The notes beneath the pieces were generated by a model. That model searched no databases and was not told where the DNA came from. It saw nothing but the letters and a program-made list of their open reading frames with translations. Below are positions 105-10,809 of a stretch of 11,342 nucleotides of DNA, one piece after another; the stretch's first letter is position 1; each line of letters begins with the position of its first letter. Position numbers and translations under genes: made by a program. This stretch comes from Actinomycetes bacterium (lineage in GTDB: Bacteria > Actinomycetota > Actinomycetes > Actinomycetales > Cellulomonadaceae): NCBI GenBank assembly GCA_023390875.1, contig JAEWCA010000167.1:1-11342 (forward strand), in the 5' to 3' direction.

Positions 105-1106
105 TCAGCGCGGTTCCGCGGTCGACCGGCGGAGCACGAGGGACGTGGGCAGCCGCACGCGCGGCTCGTCGACGTCCGGCCCGTCGAGCATCCGGGTCAG
201 CAGCCGGACCGCGGCCGCTCCCATCTGCTGGATCGACTGGCTCACCGTGGTCAGCGGCGGATCGGTCTGCGCGGACTCCGGGATGTCGCCGAACCCGACG
301 ACCGAGAGGTCCTCCGGGACGCGCAGGCCGAGGTCGCGCGCGACCTCGACGGCGGCGATCGCCGACACGTCGTACGCGGCGAAGATCGCCGTGGGACGGT
401 CCGCCCGGGACAGCAGCGCCCGCAGCGCGGCCACGGTGGAGCCGCGGCGGTAGTCGTCCGTCAGCAGGAGCGTCTCGTCGACCGCCACGCCCGCCGCGGC
501 CATCGCCGTCCGGAAGCCCTGCTCGCGCACGCGCGACCAGTGATAGAGGTCGGGCCGGCCGCCGATGAAGCCGATCCGCCGGTGGCCGAGCCCGAGCAGG
601 TGCTCGGTGGCGAGCGTCGCGCCGCCCAGGCTGTCCGAGTCGACGCCGGGCTGCCCGGACGGGCCCGCGGCCGGGTCGATCGAGACGACCGGGACGTCGA
701 CGTCGACCGGCGCGGCCGAGGGCGTGACCAGCACGGCGCCGTCGATCAGGGTGCCGCTCAGCCGGGACAGGAAACGTCGCTCCCACCCCGACCCACCGCC
801 GCGGACACCGCTCGTGTAGGCCAGGAGCTCGTACCCGGAGTCGCCGAGAGCCGCCGCGGCGCCCTTGAAGATCTCCGACGAGAACGGCTCGAACTCCCCG
901 GCGAGGACCCCGATGACATGGGTGCGTCGCGAGCGCATCCCGCGTGCGACGAGGCTGGACTCGTACCCGAGCTCCTCGATCACGCGCAGGACGTGGGCCG
1001 AGGTCGCCTCGGCGACGCCGTCGCGGCCGTTGAGCACCTTCGACACCGTCGCCACCGACACGCCCGCGGTCCGCGCGACGTCGGTGATCGTCACCCGACG
1101 AGCCAC
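105..1106 (-). CDS. LacI/GalR-family transcriptional repressor
   Basis: A 333-residue sugar-responsive DNA-binding repressor, the usual length for the family. Residues 6-26 form the N-terminal helix-turn-helix (TITDVARTAGVSVATVSKVL), with the hinge around residues 45-58. A periplasmic-binding-protein-like effector domain fills residues 60-333 and includes family-typical stretches such as GHRRIGFIGG and DLSVVGFGDIPES. The start is GTG at 1106-1104, with a strong GAGGAGG ribosome-binding site four bases upstream. It is transcribed divergently from the expansin gene, and the shared intergenic region holds a LacI-type operator candidate; a second lies upstream of the GH5 cellulase. By analogy with CelR-type regulators of cellulolytic actinobacteria, it probably represses cellulose-degradation genes until a cello-oligosaccharide binds. 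The family is certain; effector and targets are inferred. Confidence 0.93.
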   Translation of the reverse strand: MARRVTITDVARTAGVSVATVSKVLNGRDGVAEATSAHVLRVIEELGYESSLVARGMRSRRTHVIGVLAGEFEPFSSEIFKGAAAALGDSGYELLAYTSGVRGGGSGWERRFLSRLSGTLIDGAVLVTPSAAPVDVDVPVVSIDPAAGPSGQPGVDSDSLGGATLATEHLLGLGHRRIGFIGGRPDLYHWSRVREQGFRTAMAAAGVAVDETLLLTDDYRRGSTVAALRALLSRADRPTAIFAAYDVSAIAAVEVARDLGLRVPEDLSVVGFGDIPESAQTDPPLTTVSQSIQQMGAAAVRLLTRMLDGPDVDEPRVRLPTSLVLRRSTAEPR

Positions 1107-1317: not shown

Positions 1318-2664
1318 ATGGCCAGGCTCAGGAATGTCCGTTCGTGGAGCCGCGCGCTCGCCGTTCTGCTGGCAGGCGCCTGGCTCGTCGCGGCACAGGC
1401 GCCGGCCGAGGCCGTCAACCCCGGCGGCGAGCCCCAGCCGGTGACCGGCAACGCGACGTGGTTCGACAACCTCGGCTCGCCGTACGGCGGCTGCGGCCTG
1501 CCGCAGGACCAGCTCGAGACGCAGAACTGGATCGCGCTCAACGTGTTCAACACGCCGCGCGACTACACGATGTACTCCCGGCCCCTGGCCGCCGGTGACG
1601 CCAAGACCGGCATGTGGGACAACGGCCGCAACTGCGGCCGGTGGGTGCGGGTGTCGATCGGCGACTACTGCACGGGCCTCAACGACGGCGCCGCCGGGCA
1701 GGCGTTCTGCCGCAACGGGTCGTGGGTCGCGGACAAGTACAACGGCGCGACGCTCGACATGCTCGTCGCCGACAGCTGCGGCGACCCCAACGCGTGGTGC
1801 CGTGACGACCCGTACCACCTCGACCTCGCGCACGCGGCCATCAACCGCTTCGTCAAGGACGGCGCCGCGGTCGGCGACCTCGAGCCGAACCACTGGGGCA
1901 ACCGCCATGTGACGTGGGAGTTCATCAAGGCGCCGAGCTACACCGGCGACATCGAGATCGGCTTCATCCAGGGCTCGGAGAAGTGGTGGGGCGGGGTGTC
2001 GATCAACCACCTGCCCAACGGCATCCACGGCGTCGAGCACTTCACCGACGGCGCGTGGGCGACGACCCCGATGAACACCGACATGGGGCAGTCGTACCTG
2101 GTCAAGCCGACCACGGCGGGCGGCACCGACTACCGGATCCGGGTCAAGGACGTCACCGGCGCATACCTGTTCGGCGGTCGTGAGTACTCGTTCTCGCTGC
2201 CCGCGAGCTGCGGCGGCAAGTGCTCGGCGCCGCGCACGGTCGTCTCGTACACGACGTCGGGCGGCGACACCTCGACGCCCACGCCGACGCCGACCCCCAC
2301 GCCGACCGTGACACCCACGCCCACGCCCACGCCCACGCCGACGCCCACGCCCACCCCGACGTCGACCGGCGGGACCTCCGCGTGCACCGCGACCTTCCGC
2401 ACCGTGAGCGCGTGGCAGGGCGGCTTCCAGGCCGAGGTCACGGTGCAGGCCCGCACGGTGACGACGTCGTGGAGCGTGCGGTGGCAGACGTCCGGCGAAC
2501 GGGTCGACCAGGTGTGGAACGGCACGCTGTCGTCGCAGGCCGGTGCGGTCACGGTCCAGGGCGTCGCGTGGAACAGCAGGCTGGCGGCCGGCGGCTCCAC
2601 GACGTTCGGCCTGATCGGCAGCGGCACGCCGCCCACGCCGTCGCTCACGTGCACGGGCGCCTGA
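1318..2664 (+). CDS. Secreted expansin-like protein with C-terminal CBM2
   Basis: A 448-residue secreted protein expected to loosen cellulose non-hydrolytically. Residues 1-32 are a signal peptide with probable cleavage after AEA. Residues 43-197 resemble the expansin D1 double-psi beta-barrel; D152 (VADSCGDP) and D169 (HLDL) occupy the positions of the two conserved Asp residues of Bacillus expansin EXLX1/YoaJ. Residues 198-296 resemble D2/CBM63: WEFIKAP leads in, and the W223-W224 pair with Y260 matches the aromatic cellulose-binding face. A Pro-Thr linker (319-348) leads to a CBM2 (356-448) with cysteines at both ends and all three surface tryptophans (W366, W400, W418). It faces the lacI gene and has its own RBS and terminator. 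Plant-type expansins lack this CBM2; the fusion should target the protein to crystalline cellulose. Confidence 0.9.
   Translation: MARLRNVRSWSRALAVLLAGAWLVAAQAPAEAVNPGGEPQPVTGNATWFDNLGSPYGGCGLPQDQLETQNWIALNVFNTPRDYTMYSRPLAAGDAKTGMWDNGRNCGRWVRVSIGDYCTGLNDGAAGQAFCRNGSWVADKYNGATLDMLVADSCGDPNAWCRDDPYHLDLAHAAINRFVKDGAAVGDLEPNHWGNRHVTWEFIKAPSYTGDIEIGFIQGSEKWWGGVSINHLPNGIHGVEHFTDGAWATTPMNTDMGQSYLVKPTTAGGTDYRIRVKDVTGAYLFGGREYSFSLPASCGGKCSAPRTVVSYTTSGGDTSTPTPTPTPTPTVTPTPTPTPTPTPTPTPTSTGGTSACTATFRTVSAWQGGFQAEVTVQARTVTTSWSVRWQTSGERVDQVWNGTLSSQAGAVTVQGVAWNSRLAAGGSTTFGLIGSGTPPTPSLTCTGA
2275..2361 (+). repeat. Thr-Pro linker microsatellite inside the expansin-CBM2 gene
   Basis: About fourteen consecutive Thr-Pro dipeptides, interrupted by one Val, are encoded by near-perfect 6-bp repeats of ACGCCC and close variants. 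This is the usual flexible, probably glycosylated linker of actinobacterial cellulases. The repetitive DNA is prone to length change. Confidence 0.9.
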
Positions 2665-3988: not shown

Positions 3989-4467
3989 GTGCCGGCACTG
4001 CCGCCGCCCGCCCTGCAACCGTTCTGCACGCTCGAGGTCCAGCTCGCACCGATGATGGACCTCGGGCTCGGCCGCTTCGGGGAGCGGCGCATCGTCCCGA
4101 TCCTCGGCGGACGCGTGACCGGCCGGTCAGCGGCACCATCCTCGGCGTCGGCGCCGACTGGCAGTCCGTCGTGCACGACGGCGTGGCCGAGCTCGACGCG
4201 CGCTACGCGTTCCGCACCGACGACGGCGCGCTCGTCGAGATCGTCAACCAGGGGTTCCGGCACGGGCCGCCCGAGGTGATGGCGCGGCTCGCGTCGGGCG
4301 CCCCGACCTCGCCCGAGTCGTACTCGATGCTGTCGACGGCACGCCTCGAGAGCGGCCACCCCGACTACCGGTGGCTCAACCGCATGGTCTTCGTCGGCAC
4401 CGGCGCACGCGACGCGAGCACCGTGCAGGTCGACCTCTACAGCGTGGGACGAGGACCTCAGGCATGA
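3989..4467 (+). pseudogene. DUF3237 family protein, interrupted by a 1-base frameshift
   Basis: The GTG start at 3989 begins MPALPPPALQPFCTLEVQLA and reads as a DUF3237 N-terminus through ILGGRVTG. The family sequence then continues in another frame as PVSGTILGVGADWQSVVHDG, then FRTDDGALVEIVNQGFRHGP and LNRMVFVGTGARDASTVQVD, ending at the TGA at 4465-4467. One missing C near 4121-4125 (GGCCGG in place of GGCCCGG) explains the break. With it restored the protein would be 159 residues, a normal length for the family. Unrepaired, the first frame continues as unrelated sequence and ends near 4279. DUF3237 proteins are small beta-barrels of unknown function. Both halves keep GC-rich third positions, so the lesion is recent or a sequencing error. 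The gene overlaps the next start by ATGA. Confidence 0.8.
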
Positions 4468-5859: not shown

Positions 5860-7467
5860 GTGCACGCACTCCGCAAGGTCCTCACCGTCGCCGCCGCGGC
5901 CCTGGTCGCCGTCACCGGCTCGATCGTCGCCACCGACCAGGCCAGCGCCGCCGCCGGCTGCCGCGTCGACTACAAGGTGACCAACCAGTGGCAGAGCGGC
6001 TTCGGCGCGGACGTGCAGGTCACCAACCTGGGCGACCCCGTCACGAGCTGGGACCTGCGCTTCTCGTTCGCCGCGGGCCAGAGCGTCACGCAGCTCTGGA
6101 ACGGCTCCGTCACGCAGTCCGGCGCCACGGTGACGGTGCACAACGCCGGCTGGAACGGGACGCTCGCCACGAACGGCACGACCTCGTTCGGGTTCAACGG
6201 CTCCTACTCCGGGTCCAACCCGGCGCCGAGCGCGTTCATGCTCAACGGCGTGACGTGCACGGGCGCCCCGACCACCCCGACCAGCTCGCCGACGACCTCC
6301 CCGACGGCCACGCCCACCACGACACCGCGCCCGACCACGACCCCGACGCCCACACCGACCCCGACCACGGGCCCGATCACGGGCGACGCCGCCCAGCTCG
6401 TCGCCGGCATGGGCAAGGGCTGGAACCTCGGCAACCAGCTCGAGGCCAGCGTCAACGGCGTCCCCGGCGAGACGGCATGGGGCAACCCGGTCGTGACCGG
6501 GGCGCTCCTCGACCGGGTCAAGGCCGCCGGCTTCTCCACGATCCGCATCCCCGTCTCCTACCTCGGCAAGATCGGGTCCGCACCGGACTACACCGTCGAC
6601 CCCGCGTGGCTGAGCCGCATCCAGGAGGTCGTCGACCTGGCCTACGACCGGGGGCTGTACGTCGTCGTCAACATGCACGGCGACGGCTACAAGTCCGTCA
6701 GCGGCGCGTGGCTGATCTGCGACGCGTCGTCCCAGACCGCGATCAAGGACAAGTACCAGAAGGTCTGGCAGCAGGTGGCGTCGAAGTTCCAGGGCTACGG
6801 CGGACGCCTGGTGCTCGAGTCCATGAACGAGGAGTTCGACGGGCAGTACGGGAACCCGACGCAGCCGTGCTACTCCAACATCAACGCGTACAACCAGATC
6901 TTCGTCGACACGGTGCGCCGCACGGGCGGCAACAACACGTCGCGGTGGCTGCTCGTGCCCGGCTGGAACACCAACATCGACTACACCGCGGGGAGCTACG
7001 GGTTCGTCGTGCCGACCGACCAGTACCGGTCGGCGTCGATCCCGAGCACCCAGAAGCGGATCATGATCTCGGTGCACTACTACGACCCGTGGGACTTCAC
7101 CGGGACGGAGAGCGGCGCCGTCACGCAGTGGGGCCCGGCCGCGACCGACCCGTCGAAGCGGGCCACGTGGGGCCAGCAGGACTACCTGGACGCCCAGCTG
7201 AAGAAGATGCACGACACGTTCGCCGTCCAGGGGTACCCGGTGTTCGTCGGCGAGTACGGCTCGATCGACAAGACGGCCTTCGACGCGACGAACAACCGGT
7301 ACCGGGCCGACTACGCGCGCACGCTCGTCGCCACCGCGGCGAAGTACGGCGCGGCCACCGCCTACTGGGACAACGGGTTCAACGGCCAGTACGGGTTCGC
7401 GCTGTTCGACCGGCGCTCCGCGACCGTGACGCAGCAGGGGATCATCGACGCGATCATGGGTCGCTGA
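5860..7467 (+). CDS. Secreted CBM2-GH5 endoglucanase (cellulase)
   Basis: A 535-residue secreted endo-beta-1,4-glucanase. The signal peptide covers about residues 1-32, with cleavage near ASAAA. A CBM2 fills residues 34-133, bounded by C34 and C133, with the three cellulose-stacking tryptophans W44, W80 and W98; it closely resembles the CBM2a of Cellulomonas fimi Cex. A Thr/Pro/Ser linker (137-172) leads to a GH5 TIM barrel (about 176-533). Visible GH5 residues are R229 (IRIPV), H273 (VNMHG), the acid/base E324 in MNE, H406 (VHYYDPW), the nucleophile E465 in GEYG, and W503. The GTG start at 5860 is chosen because it sits just before the signal peptide and follows GAGAGGG. The gene ends at a strong terminator, and a LacI-type operator upstream suggests cellobiose-type induction. 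The GH5 subfamily was not determined. Confidence 0.95.
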   Translation: MHALRKVLTVAAAALVAVTGSIVATDQASAAAGCRVDYKVTNQWQSGFGADVQVTNLGDPVTSWDLRFSFAAGQSVTQLWNGSVTQSGATVTVHNAGWNGTLATNGTTSFGFNGSYSGSNPAPSAFMLNGVTCTGAPTTPTSSPTTSPTATPTTTPRPTTTPTPTPTPTTGPITGDAAQLVAGMGKGWNLGNQLEASVNGVPGETAWGNPVVTGALLDRVKAAGFSTIRIPVSYLGKIGSAPDYTVDPAWLSRIQEVVDLAYDRGLYVVVNMHGDGYKSVSGAWLICDASSQTAIKDKYQKVWQQVASKFQGYGGRLVLESMNEEFDGQYGNPTQPCYSNINAYNQIFVDTVRRTGGNNTSRWLLVPGWNTNIDYTAGSYGFVVPTDQYRSASIPSTQKRIMISVHYYDPWDFTGTESGAVTQWGPAATDPSKRATWGQQDYLDAQLKKMHDTFAVQGYPVFVGEYGSIDKTAFDATNNRYRADYARTLVATAAKYGAATAYWDNGFNGQYGFALFDRRSATVTQQGIIDAIMGR

Positions 7468-7575: not shown

Positions 7576-8511
7576 TCACAGCAGCTCGACGTCGTCCGCC
7601 TGCGGTCCTCGGTCGCTCTGCCGCACCCTGAAGCGGACCCGGTCGCCCTCGAGCAGCACCTCGTCACCGCGCACGACCGGCACGTGCACGAACAGGTCGG
7701 CGCCGCCCGCGTCCGGGGTGATGAAGCCGAACCCGCGGTCGGCGTCGTACCGCGCGACGACGCCCTCGCCCGCGCGTGCCGAGCTGCCGTGCCCCCGCGG
7801 GGCGCTCCGACCACGACCCGGGGCGGGCGCACCGCGCCGCGAGAAGCCGCCGACGAGGTCGACGTCGCGGGCCTGCGGGCCCTTCTCGCTCTCGATGACG
7901 TCGAACGTCACGCGGTCGCCCTCGACCAGCCCGTCCAGCCCCCGGGCCAGGGCCCGGACGTGGACGAAGACGTCCTCGCCGCCGGACTCGGGGGTCACGA
8001 ACCCGAAGCCCTTGTCCGCGTCGTACCAGGACACCGTGCCGTCCGCGCCGTCGGACGCGACCGCCGGTCCGGCGGCCTGGCCCGCGAGCGGCAGGACGTG
8101 GTCGGCCTGCGGTCCCTTCTCGCCGTCCACCACGAGGAACGCGACCCGCTGCCCCTCCGAGACCACGCCACCACCCACGATCGCGGAGCTGTGCACGAAG
8201 ATCTCGGCGCCGCCGCCGTCCGGGGTCACGAAGCCGTACCCCTTGCCCGGCTCGTACCAGGCGACGGTGCCCAGCACGCCCAGGGCGGCACCGGCGGCGT
8301 GGTCGCCCGTGACCCGGACGCGGCGCGCCTGCGGTCCACGGTCCCCCTGGCCGACCTCGAACTCGACCTCCTGGCCCTCGCGGAGCAGCCGCGGCCCGTC
8401 GTCGTCGACGATCTCCGACACGTGCACGAACAGGTCCTCGGCGTCGCCCTCGAGGGCGACGAAGCCGAAGCCCCGCTCGGCGTCGAACCAACGGACGGTT
8501 CCCTGGGGCAC
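7576..8511 (-). CDS. Protein with four tandem cold-shock domains
   Basis: A 311-residue nucleic-acid-binding protein made of four cold-shock (OB-fold) domains, whereas bacterial Csp proteins usually have one domain of about 70 residues. The domains lie near residues 3-67, 79-141, 157-219 and 248-311. Each has an RNP1 motif (RGFGFV 13-18, KGYGFV 90-95, KGFGFV 167-172, RGFGFI 259-264) and an RNP2 motif (LFVH 27-30, IFVH 104-107, VFVH 181-184, LFVH 273-276), and each ends in a G-P-Q-A signature. Domain four has Arg254 where the others have the surface Trp (W8, W85, W162). Domains three and four are joined by an Arg/Gly/Ser-rich linker (221-247), suggesting extra RNA contacts. The GTG start at 8511-8509 follows a GAGGAG site six bases upstream. 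Probably an RNA chaperone or translation factor. Confidence 0.9.
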
Positions 8512-8588
8512 GGCTGACTCCTCGCTCGACCGACGATGTGCTGCCACCAGTGTCCCCCGCGGTCGGGTGCGCGTCGTGACGCGGTCGT

Positions 8589-8602
8589 TAGGGTGACGCC
8601 CG
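8589..8602 (+). promoter_or_regulatory. -10 element for a probable leaderless transcript of the NIF3-like gene
   Basis: TAGGGT (8589-8594) fits the actinobacterial TANNNT -10 box and ends 7 bases before the GTG at 8602, placing the transcription start at or next to the start codon. No convincing -35 or Shine-Dalgarno sequence is seen. The spacing equals that at 9927-9940. Confidence 0.55.
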
Positions 8603-9438
8603 TGACGGTGACGGCGGGGCAGGTGGCGGGGCGGATCGCGGCGCACGTGGGGGTGCCGCCGCGGGCCACGACGGTCGACGGCTTCCTCGCCGGCGACCCG
8701 GACGCGCCGATCAGGGGGATCGCCGTGACGGTGATGGCGACGCTCGACGTGCTGCGCCGAGCCGCGGAGCGGGGTCTCGACCTCGTCGTCACGCACGAGC
8801 CGCTCTACTTCGACCACCACGGCGCGTCGGACGCGGTCCTCGCCGACGAGGCCGACCCGGTGTTCGCCGCGAAGTCGGCGTTCGTCGCCGAGCACGGGCT
8901 GGTGGTGCTGCACCAGCACGACGCGTGGCACGACCGGCAGCCCGACGGCATCCTCACCGGGACGGCACGGGCGCTCGGCTGGCTGGACGACGAGCGCGCG
9001 GGCGACCCGGGCGTCTACGACCTGCCGCGGACGACGCTCGGTGCGCTGGCCGAGCACGTCGGGGAGGCGCTGGGCGCGCGGGCGCTGCGCTACGTCGGCG
9101 ACCCCGACGCGGCGGTGTCCGTCGTCGCGCTGCAACCGGGGTTCCAGGGGTTCGGACGGAACCGGCGCGTGCTCGCGCGACCGGACGTGGACGTGCTCGT
9201 CGTCGGCGAGGGCCACGAGTGGGAGACCGGCGAGTACGCCGCCGACGCCGTCACCGCGGGCCTGTGCGCCGGTGTCGTCGTGGTCGGGCACGTGCCGTCG
9301 GAGCAGGAGGGCATGGCCGAGCTCGGTCGCTGGCTCGCGGAGCTCGTGCCGGAGGTCCCGGTCGAGCTGGTCGCCGCCGCCGACCCGTTCCGGACGGTCA
9401 CGCCGCCCGGTGCCGCTGCTCCCACTGCTCCCTGGTGA
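8602..9438 (+). CDS. NIF3-like dinuclear metal-centre protein
   Basis: A 278-residue protein of the NIF3/YbgI family, whose members form hexameric toroids with a two-metal site; the biochemical role is poorly defined, although some are labelled GTP cyclohydrolase I type 2. Likely metal ligands are H65 (VVTHEPLYF), the HQHDAWH cluster (H104, H106, D107), and H230 with E234 (GHVPSEQEG). The start is GTG at 8602, where a -10 box seven bases upstream suggests a leaderless message; GTG codons at 8593 and 8608 are alternatives. The family-like sequence ends near DPFRTV (residues 261-266). The final nine codons, from 9409, are unusually rich in T at the third position and fall in the segment that looks inverted. 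The present C-terminus (GAAAPTAPW) is therefore probably not ancestral. Confidence 0.85.
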
Positions 9439-9496
9439 TCTCGTACCGGTAGCCGCCCAGCTCGGCGCCCTCGACCGCCAGCATGTCGTCGGGCGG
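9403..9496. other. Apparently inverted 94-bp segment flanked by 7-bp inverted repeats
   Basis: CCGCCCG (9403-9409) and CGGGCGG (9490-9496) are inverted copies flanking 80 bases. On the plus strand this segment has poor codon quality. On the minus strand it reads as 28 codons from an ATG at 9485-9483 to the stop at 9400-9398 ([20 protein letters not shown], then WEQRHRAA), all with G or C in third position. Flipping the segment gives one open frame from the NIF3-like gene through this stretch into AVDDYL, the first recognisable residues of the GNAT gene. An alternative is the truncated 3' end of a convergent minus-strand gene. Confidence 0.5.
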
Positions 9497-9874
9497 TCGA
9501 CGACTACCTCGCCTGCGACAGGTCGCCGGGCTGCACCCCAAGACCGCGCCGCAGGCGGAGGTCGCGCTGCGGGGAGCTGGTCGGTCTGCCATGTCACCGG
9601 TCCCGGCGGCGGCACGGTCGCCATGGGGCGCGTCGTCGGTGACGGCGGCTGGTACTTCGTCGTCGCCGACATGGTGACCGACCCCGGCCACCAGCGCCGG
9701 GGCGTCGGCCGCGCGGTCCTCGACCACCTCCTGGCTGACGTCCGCCGCCGCGCCCCCGGGGAGCCGTACGTGACGCTCGCCGCCGACGACGCCGGGCAGC
9801 GCCTGTACGAGCAGGCGGGGTTCCGCGCGTTCGGCGTCGGCCAGACGGGGATGCAGCTCGTGCTCACGCGCTGA
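9496..9874 (+). pseudogene. GNAT-family N-acetyltransferase, 5'-disrupted and frameshifted twice
   Basis: GNAT sequence is spread over three frames. VDDYL is read from 9496-9510. [20 protein letters not shown] is read in a second frame from 9510. [12 protein letters not shown] through the TGA at 9872-9874 is read in a third frame from 9575. Missing single bases, a C near 9510 and a G in the run at 9571-9574, explain both shifts. The last part contains motif A with the acetyl-CoA pyrophosphate loop QRRGVG, and the [20 protein letters not shown]-terminus typical of the family. No start codon with an RBS lies directly upstream; a plausible N-terminus ([10 protein letters not shown]) is present on the opposite strand in the segment 9403-9496. 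Substrate unknown. The gene cannot be read as one protein from this sequence. Confidence 0.75.
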
Positions 9875-9926
9875 GCCGCACGGCCAGGCCCCAGGACGTC
9901 GACCGGCGGACGTCGCGCGTCGCGGT

Positions 9927-9940
9927 TACCGTCGCGGGTA
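9927..9940 (+). promoter_or_regulatory. -10 element for a probable leaderless transcript of the SGNH hydrolase gene
   Basis: TACCGT (9927-9932) fits TANNNT and ends 7 bases before the ATG at 9940, the same geometry as at 8589-8602. No Shine-Dalgarno sequence precedes the ATG, which supports initiation on a leaderless mRNA. Confidence 0.55.
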
Positions 9941-10809
9941 TGAGGCGCCTGCTGCGGACGGCGAGGTCCGCTCTCCTCACGACGGTGGCCGCCGTCGGGC
10001 TCGTCGGCGGCGCTGCTGGACCTGCGACCTCGGCCGCGCCGGCGATCTCGCCTCCCTCGGCGGACGCAGCGCCGGCGGGCCGGGCGCCCCGCGTCGTGTA
10101 CGACGCGCTCGGCGACTCGTACGCGTCGGGGTACGGCGTGCCGCCCTACGCCGACTGCGGCCGCTCCCAGGGCGCGTACCCGGAGCTGCTCGACGGTCGC
10201 CACCGCCTGCGGCTCGACGACTTCGTCGCGTGCGCGGGCGCGACCACCACGTCGCTCGTCACGGGCGGCCAGCTCAGCGCCCTGGATACCGGGACCGACC
10301 TCGTGACGCTGACCGTCGGCGGCAACGACATCGGCTGGTCGACCGCCGTCACCGCCTGCCTCGGCGGCACGGACGTCCAGTGCGCGGGCGCGCTCGCGCT
10401 CGTCGACGGCCGCACGACGACCCAGCTGCCGGCCCTCCTCGACGCGCTGTACGCGCAGGTCGCCGCGGCGGCGCCGGACGCACGCGTCGTCGTGACCGGG
10501 TACCCGCACCTCTTCTCGCCCGAGTACGGCACGTACCTCGCGGCCTCCCCCGCCGAGCTCTCCGCCCTCAACGCGGCCGCGGACACGCTCGACACGGTGA
10601 TCGCCGCGGCGGCCGCCCGCGCCGGCTTCGAGTACGTCGACGTGCGCCGGCGGTTCGACGGCCACGGTGCGAACTCGCCGGACGCGTGGATCTTGGGACC
10701 CACCGACCCGGCGGCGTTCCACCCGACCGCCCAGGGGTACCGCGCCTACGCGGCCGCGGTGACCGCGGAGCTGGGTCCGCTCGGGCCGGGGTGCGGCGGC
10801 CGCCGGTAG
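9940..10809 (+). CDS. Secreted SGNH/GDSL-family esterase or lipase
   Basis: A 289-residue secreted serine hydrolase resembling the Streptomyces SGNH lipase/esterase group. A basic start and hydrophobic core (residues 1-36) form the signal peptide. Family blocks appear in order: ALGDSYASG with nucleophile S60 (block I), ACAGAT with G100 (block II), TVGGND with oxyanion N129 (block III), and [12 protein letters not shown] with the catalytic pair D256 and H261 (block V). Cysteines 73 and 98, and 140 and 148, are likely disulfides of the exported enzyme. The ATG at 9940 directly precedes the signal peptide and follows a leaderless-type promoter. It probably cleaves short-chain acyl esters outside the cell; a role in deacetylating plant polymers is possible but not shown. 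Its 3' end overlaps a convergent minus-strand frame. Confidence 0.92.

Follow-up and report, generated by a model that had tools for sequence, protein, structure and literature searches.

Bacterial cold-shock proteins are treated as single-domain proteins in a 2021 review (PMC7825780), and the question raised here is what a bacterium of the family Cellulomonadaceae may do with one that carries four cold-shock domains (CSDs) on a single chain. Its gene lies on a stretch of 11,342 nucleotides (contig JAEWCA010000167.1 of assembly GCA_023390875.1), called the window below. The product departs from the single-domain rule of that review and breaks the size rule of the CspA family (one domain of about 70 amino acids) with its four domains in 311 amino acids. 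The first-pass annotation of this DNA had proposed an intact single protein at 7576..8511 with four mutually divergent CSDs, and both points hold. The reading frame, from a GTG at 8511 to a stop at 7576-7578, has no internal stop, and the Pfam profile PF00313 matches the protein in four stretches (E = 3.4e-83; 273.9 bits against a curated cut-off of 27). The GFGF or GYGF motifs lie at residues 14, 91, 168, and 260, and the pairwise identity among the four domains (D1 to D4) is 43-59%; they are therefore divergent. We propose that the protein is probably a tetravalent binder of single-stranded nucleic acids and most likely acts as an RNA chaperone or an mRNA-binding factor; the earlier suggestion that it binds single-stranded RNA by several domains is plausible.

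The protein belongs to a conserved family and is not the distinctive one-off that it had first seemed. A pattern scan of genome contigs gave at least 594 matches, at least 528 of them relatives, from which the best 80 loci (L001-L080) were kept and aligned with the window protein, giving an alignment of 81 sequences. Each of the 80 aligns with the query from its first residue through residue 309, 310, or 311, and the key columns of each domain are filled in all 81 sequences; L005 and L074 each miss one strict motif match, the domain itself being present. Their hosts include Cellulomonas, Actinotalea, Promicromonospora, Isoptericola, Cellulosimicrobium, Oerskovia, Sanguibacter, Terrabacter, Knoellia, Humibacillus, Ornithinimicrobium, and Serinicoccus. 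Close copies also stand in records labelled Sphaerisporangium cinnabarinum (L044) and "Proteobacteria bacterium" (L034); mislabelling or contamination is likely for such records, since the upstream sequence of L044 is nearly that of Cellulosimicrobium L042.

In samples drawn around the genome of L001, which is itself counted, a match at E <= 1e-60 was found in 156 of the 200 genomes of the family and in at least 54 of the 396 genomes of the order, and a match below 1e-100 in at least seven of the 394 genomes of the class, the last two counts being lower bounds with at most five candidates scored per genome. For eight of the 54 order-level matches the alignment runs only from residue 1 to residue 191-252 and does not span the fourth domain. 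Among the listed genomes, including all 49 further ones with a match at E <= 1e-60, each matching genome has one copy, with the sole exception of G887, which has two; in each of four genomes checked with PF00313, three to five other CSD loci stand beside the four-CSD gene.

A tree was built of 79 domains, namely those of 12 among the 81 sequences, together with 16 single CSDs and the 15 domains of four other multi-CSD proteins. Each of the four positions forms a clade of its own, with strong support for D1 and D2 (100/99 each) and moderate support for D3 (93/92) and D4 (88/80, or 91/88 when one domain of the multi-CSD protein L098 is included). The four-domain form is thus older than the split of these families, since each position forms its own clade; with few columns, the tree is silent on the deeper branching order.

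The first-pass annotation had named as refuting evidence that multi-CSD proteins of this length prove widespread and already characterised in the genus. They are indeed widespread in these genera, but searches of open-licence papers in PubMed Central (PMC) showed no study devoted to a bacterial protein of the tandem multi-CSD type, and sources that give the protein a name list it simply as a cold-shock (CspA family) protein. Three leads were set aside: the "multiple CSDs" of PMC6950789, in the accessible part of that source, are many csp genes, and the Cellulomonas mentions in the accessible parts of PMC7383231 and PMC6518244 stand in unrelated contexts. The four-CSD proteins described here form a real and conserved family, apparently unstudied so far, within one branch of the soil Actinobacteria.

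Other actinobacterial multi-CSD proteins, found in Motilibacter and in the Geodermatophilaceae (among them Klenkia, Modestobacter, Blastococcus, and Geodermatophilus), likewise have several CSDs and Arg/Gly/Asp-rich linkers, and Arg at the Trp position discussed below occurs in some of their internal domains. They differ in sequence (about 42-48% identity along the length, up to 53% over part of it), in a varying domain number, and in keeping the aromatic residue at position 30 in 229 of 280 domains (72 proteins). The other actinobacterial proteins L097, L098, L099, and L100 each have Arg-rich linkers and a set of three or four CSDs, with Arg at the Trp position in D2 of L098 and D3 of L099. 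When four other proteins from Actinobacteria served as queries, the matches included members from Motilibacter and the Geodermatophilaceae whose Arg-rich linkers are long; among 111 newly listed proteins there were four CSDs in 73, three in 24, five in eight, six in five, and two in one; at least 39 of the 111 belong to the family of the window protein. Actinobacteria have several multi-CSD lineages, either independent or ancient.

The residues that contact nucleic acids show which parts of the surface were kept. In the accessible part of PMC4493011, site 1 of BsCspB consists of Phe30 and Phe38, sites 2, 3, and 4 are His29, Phe27, and Phe17, and site 5 is Trp8; the CSD of YB-1 lacks site 1. 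Across the 81 sequences, all four domains retain RNP1 (GFGF or GYGF) as well as the F-x-H core of RNP2; the variation comprises GYGF in D2, a variable middle residue of FVH in D2, and F or Y as the first FVH residue in D1. The aromatic residues corresponding to Phe30, which follows F-x-H, and to Phe38 in the loop are gone from all four domains of the window protein, so that the first-pass description of "intact RNP motifs" stands for the cores and fails for the site-1 aromatics.

This loss is nearly general in the family. Position 30 is non-aromatic in 321 of the 324 aligned domains (the exceptions, two Y and one F, are all in D3) and in 479 of 480 domains of 120 listed homologues, the window protein among them; the residue behind the His is mostly A in D1, S in D2, V or A in D3, and V in D4. 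In 306 of the 324 domains the Phe38 loop is free of F, Y, and W; the exceptions are one in D1, four in D3, and 13 in D4. As controls, 20 single CSDs of the class sample all have Trp8 and aromatics at both positions, although, being picked among high-scoring matches, they lean to canonical forms; among 16 single CSDs of five genomes, 12 have an aromatic at position 30 (one of these being His) and 12 at position 38. The replacement of the surface Trp by Arg in the fourth domain, noticed earlier, is borne out at R254, with Arg in 81 of 81 aligned sequences; among the 120 listed homologues it is Arg in 119 and Gly in one. Compared with CspA and CspB, the family shares the fold, RNP1, the F-x-H core, and the GPQA motif, whereas it has four domains in place of one, Arg for Trp8 in D4, a long basic linker, and nearly no site-1 aromatics. 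The predicted binding surface of the family is remodelled, and shorter RNA footprints would follow from the loss of site 1.

The same residues bear on whether the ligand is RNA. A role with single-stranded DNA or in transcription, as an antiterminator or an ssDNA-binding factor and not an RNA chaperone, would fit the score of the protein against the NCBIfam CspE antiterminator model, whose cut-off is exceeded, as are those of several other Csp models. The 10-fold preference of BsCspB for DNA is due to thymine methyl contacts, and site 1 is missing here; moreover, the YB-1 CSD, which likewise lacks site 1 while keeping sites 2-4 and the site-5 Trp, as do D1-D3, prefers RNA (accessible part of PMC4493011). 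We consider this role unlikely. The parallel with YB-1 extends to the domain and not to its setting, there being no tandem array in YB-1. That protein has one CSD with long disordered tails.

A second alternative is that some domains, D4 first, no longer grip RNA and serve as a scaffold that orients the others or recruits a partner, like the non-canonical CSDs of UNR. The invariance of R254, the conserved domain order, and the mean top-residue frequency of D4, which despite the loss of Trp is level with that of D1 (0.889 and 0.884, respectively; D2, 0.913; D3, 0.794), would agree with it. Yet GFGF, F274, and H276 of D4 are kept in 81 of 81 sequences, and these are residues of the kind that UNR pseudo-CSDs lack; nor does the structural model described below give a confident interdomain arrangement. 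On balance such a scaffold seems quite improbable.

Returning to RNA binding, we suggest that the four OB barrels on one chain would each grip a short unpaired stretch of RNA. A single domain alone would be a weak binder, since none of the four has site 1 and D4 lacks site 5 as well, and tethering could regain affinity by avidity, whether the unpaired RNA is one long stretch or several short ones. D1, D2, and D3 are joined by short linkers, and the flexible basic linker of D4 could let it contact a second segment. This D3-D4 linker contains six K or R and no D or E in residues 223-246 and is predicted to be disordered by AlphaFold (pLDDT under 50 in residues 222-245); across the 81 sequences, the length of the stretch aligned with residues 220-245 varies between 20 and 52 residues, with a median of 28. 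The "RGG-like" Arg/Gly-rich linker of the first-pass annotation is accordingly basic and Arg/Gly-rich, but in the window copy it has no RGG triplet, and so none of the clustered RGG repeats of RGG-box proteins: RGG stands immediately before D4 in 72 of the 81 sequences, and the window copy has RAG there.

Three points weigh against RNA binding as the function. The window protein is acidic, with a pI of 4.7 and a net charge of -20. Site 1 has also been lost in four of the 16 single CSDs, all of them in proteins of 124-131 amino acids from related genomes. Finally, the loss of stacking residues could equally mean that RNA binding was given up for protein contacts. Ordinary Csps are likewise often acidic. 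The four proteins of 124-131 amino acids (L084, L087, L091, and L095) have one CSD, a longer C-terminal tail, and no aromatics at positions 30 and 38; they are a separate csp subtype in four genomes.

The likeness to UNR/CSDE1 suggested earlier can be judged from a structural model. AlphaFold, run on 25 of the 81 sequences, predicts four five-stranded barrels (mean pLDDT 75.4), and with a pTM of 0.33 the model has no fixed domain arrangement. Its single domains match CspA, CspB, and CspE chains in Foldseek with a TMt of about 0.9. With the whole string, the first four Foldseek matches are UNR fragments with a TMq of 0.19-0.24 (a fifth has 0.25), at an rmsd of 12-21 Å and 17-20% identity; these low values are weak evidence, since the model itself has no fixed arrangement. 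Both proteins have several CSDs per chain. In UNR, however, canonical CSDs take turns with pseudo-CSDs in which FGF and FFH are absent, according to the accessible part of PMC7383231, which also mentions a Clostridium protein with non-canonical CSDs, whereas all four window domains keep their cores, and a TMq of 0.19-0.25 with 17-20% identity gives no sign of common descent. Thus the multi-CSD architecture does recall UNR, and close kinship does not follow from it: judged by sequence and model, the likeness is architectural only, beads on a string without a shared arrangement.

Upstream of the gene, the relatives share an element, GGGACACT, that also helped to fix the start codon: the start was set at 8511 because the orthologues, the ribosome-binding site, and this element agree. 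Start codons in the 81 sequences were chosen as GTG in 76, ATG in three, and TTG in two, and a purine-rich stretch comparable to GAGGAG is seen upstream of the relatives. A longer minus-strand open reading frame (7576-10722, 1048 amino acids) was rejected as an open-frame artefact of high G+C content. The family consensus of the element is GTC(G/A)GGGACACTGG; the copy in the window, GGGGGACACTGG, lacks the leading TC. The core ends 34-39 nucleotides before the start codon in 78 of the 81 upstream regions, and a GACACT-like core lies within 70 nucleotides in 79, the exceptions being L051, with the variant CACACT, and L061, where none was found in that range.

At a score above 11 bits, a matrix of the element picked out its 79 own sites plus 10 further places in 1.54 Mb, both strands counted; only the further places are a test, since the matrix had been trained on the own sites. 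The pattern TCRGGGACAMTRG, sought in 16 chosen whole genomes, has 15 occurrences spread over 13 of them (the reversed control pattern has six), with no exact match in the other three, and by coordinates 13 of the 15 occurrences lie directly 5' of the CSD gene, one per genome. Therefore the element, nearly specific genome-wide to the start region of the four-CSD gene, belongs to this gene and not to a wide regulon. It may be an operator, or else a -10 element in which A, A, and T are fixed and the first base is G, which is unusual. A structured leader RNA is unsupported: 17 chosen leaders folded with a mean z of about 0 against simple shuffles, the lowest being -2.15 (L020).

Gene order raises another possibility, that the protein is an arm of proteostasis, expressed and working with an adjoining DnaK-GrpE-DnaJ operon. 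Within 4-kb flanks, some of them ended by contig ends and with Pfam identity established on one example each, dnaK lies at most 3.2 kb downstream on the same strand in 27 of the 80 loci, grpE in 22, and dnaJ in 16. For 49 further genomes, distances were worked out by hand from coordinates (L034, L061, L069, and L072 were looked at within the flanks only): dnaK was found in 48, on the contig of the CSD gene in 18 and on separate contigs in 30. In 17 of the 18 it is downstream and co-directional, at 4.7 to about 50 kb; in G440 it is about 221 kb off on the other strand. Taken together, 44 of the 45 cases with both genes on one contig have dnaK downstream in the same direction, at 0.1-50 kb. In all 11 genomes of Intrasporangiaceae and Ornithinimicrobiaceae where dnaK was matched, the two genes are on different contigs.

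Common control was assessed with a 14-position HAIR consensus. A HAIR-like repeat precedes dnaK in all 27 loci with one to three mismatches, and the best match 5' of the CSD gene in the same loci has five to seven; over 80 CSD upstream regions the mismatches number three in one, five in 12, six in 57, and seven in 10, and the lone three-mismatch site (L054) overlaps the GGGACACT element itself. Control of the CSD gene by HspR was accordingly rejected. In L019, L020, L042, and L045, two HAIR-like inverted repeats, not one, precede dnaK. The co-directional order speaks for a link to DnaK, but the genes are on different contigs in 30 genomes, the window has no dnaK, and the repeat of dnaK is not shared; shared descent explains the order without a functional tie, and we regard the proteostasis role as very unlikely.

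A bolder combination of these features would make the protein a separately arisen bacterial counterpart of UNR, in which four short-footprint YB-1-like CSDs, one of them Arg-switched on a flexible arm, read spaced single-stranded motifs in chosen transcripts instead of covering RNA indiscriminately, with self-control via GGGACACT and a tie by gene order to the DnaK system. We offer this as a speculative and rather doubtful proposal.

The immediate neighbours in the window (Table 1) were rejected as functional partners, their homologues being rare or missing near the CSD gene of relatives. When ten window genes were compared with L001-L080 (tblastn, E 1e-20), the NIF3-like gene matched in two loci (L001 and L074) and the GH5 cellulase in seven, and the LacI, VOC, and LuxR genes had no match. 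The NIF3/DUF34-like gene is divergent from the CSD gene, with a gap of 81 bp if the chosen start is correct. Two proteins with cellulose-binding CBM2 and PT-repeat linkers are the GH5 cellulase and a CBM2 protein whose N-terminal domain, unassigned by profile, looks expansin-like by eye. The DUF3237 gene appears frameshifted, by decay or assembly error, since its halves sit in different frames: the frame 4171-4467 covers only profile positions 59-149, and the front half, by eye, lies in another frame directly upstream.

Table 1. Positions of the four-CSD gene, its parts, and neighbouring genes in the window
Feature	Position	Strand	Remarks
Four-CSD protein gene	7576..8511	-	311 amino acids, GTG start; intact open reading frame
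CSD1	8311..8505	-	Residues 3-67; W8, GFGF, FVH present; no site-1 aromatics
CSD2	8083..8277	-	Residues 79-143; W85, GYGF, FVH present; no site-1 aromatics
CSD3	7855..8043	-	Residues 157-219; W162, GFGF, FVH present; no site-1 aromatics
Basic Arg/Gly/Ser/Pro linker D3-D4	7777..7854	-	Residues 220-245; predicted disordered; no RGG triplet
CSD4	7582..7776	-	Residues 246-310; GFGF and FVH present; site-5 Trp replaced by Arg; no site-1 aromatics
R254 codon (Trp-to-Arg position, CSD4)	7750-7752	-	From the alignment of 81 sequences
Ribosome-binding site GAGGAG	8518..8523	-	Six nucleotides 5' of the GTG start
Conserved GGGGGACACTGG element	8547..8558	-	Core GACACT at 8549-8554, 37 nucleotides 5' of the start codon
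LacI regulator	105-1106	-	
CBM2 protein	1318-2664	+	PT-repeat linker
DUF3237 gene	3989-4467	+	Apparent front half, by eye, from 3989 onward
CBM2 protein	5860-7467	+	PT-repeat linker
NIF3/DUF34-like gene	8593-9435	+	Chosen start 8593
GNAT acetyltransferase fragment	9623-9874	+	Only the back part of most profiles matched; possibly truncated or frameshifted

The conserved four-domain proteins of Cellulomonadaceae, Promicromonosporaceae, Intrasporangiaceae, and their kin stand against the single-domain picture of bacterial cold-shock proteins (PMC7825780). New features of this family are the fixed Trp-to-Arg replacement of D4, the near-general loss of site 1, the nearly gene-specific GGGACACT element, and the position of dnaK downstream in 44 of 45 cases where the two genes share a contig. 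The family offers a compact, intron-free system for asking how the number of CSDs, their linkers, and the loss of subsites set RNA affinity and choice, a question familiar chiefly from UNR.
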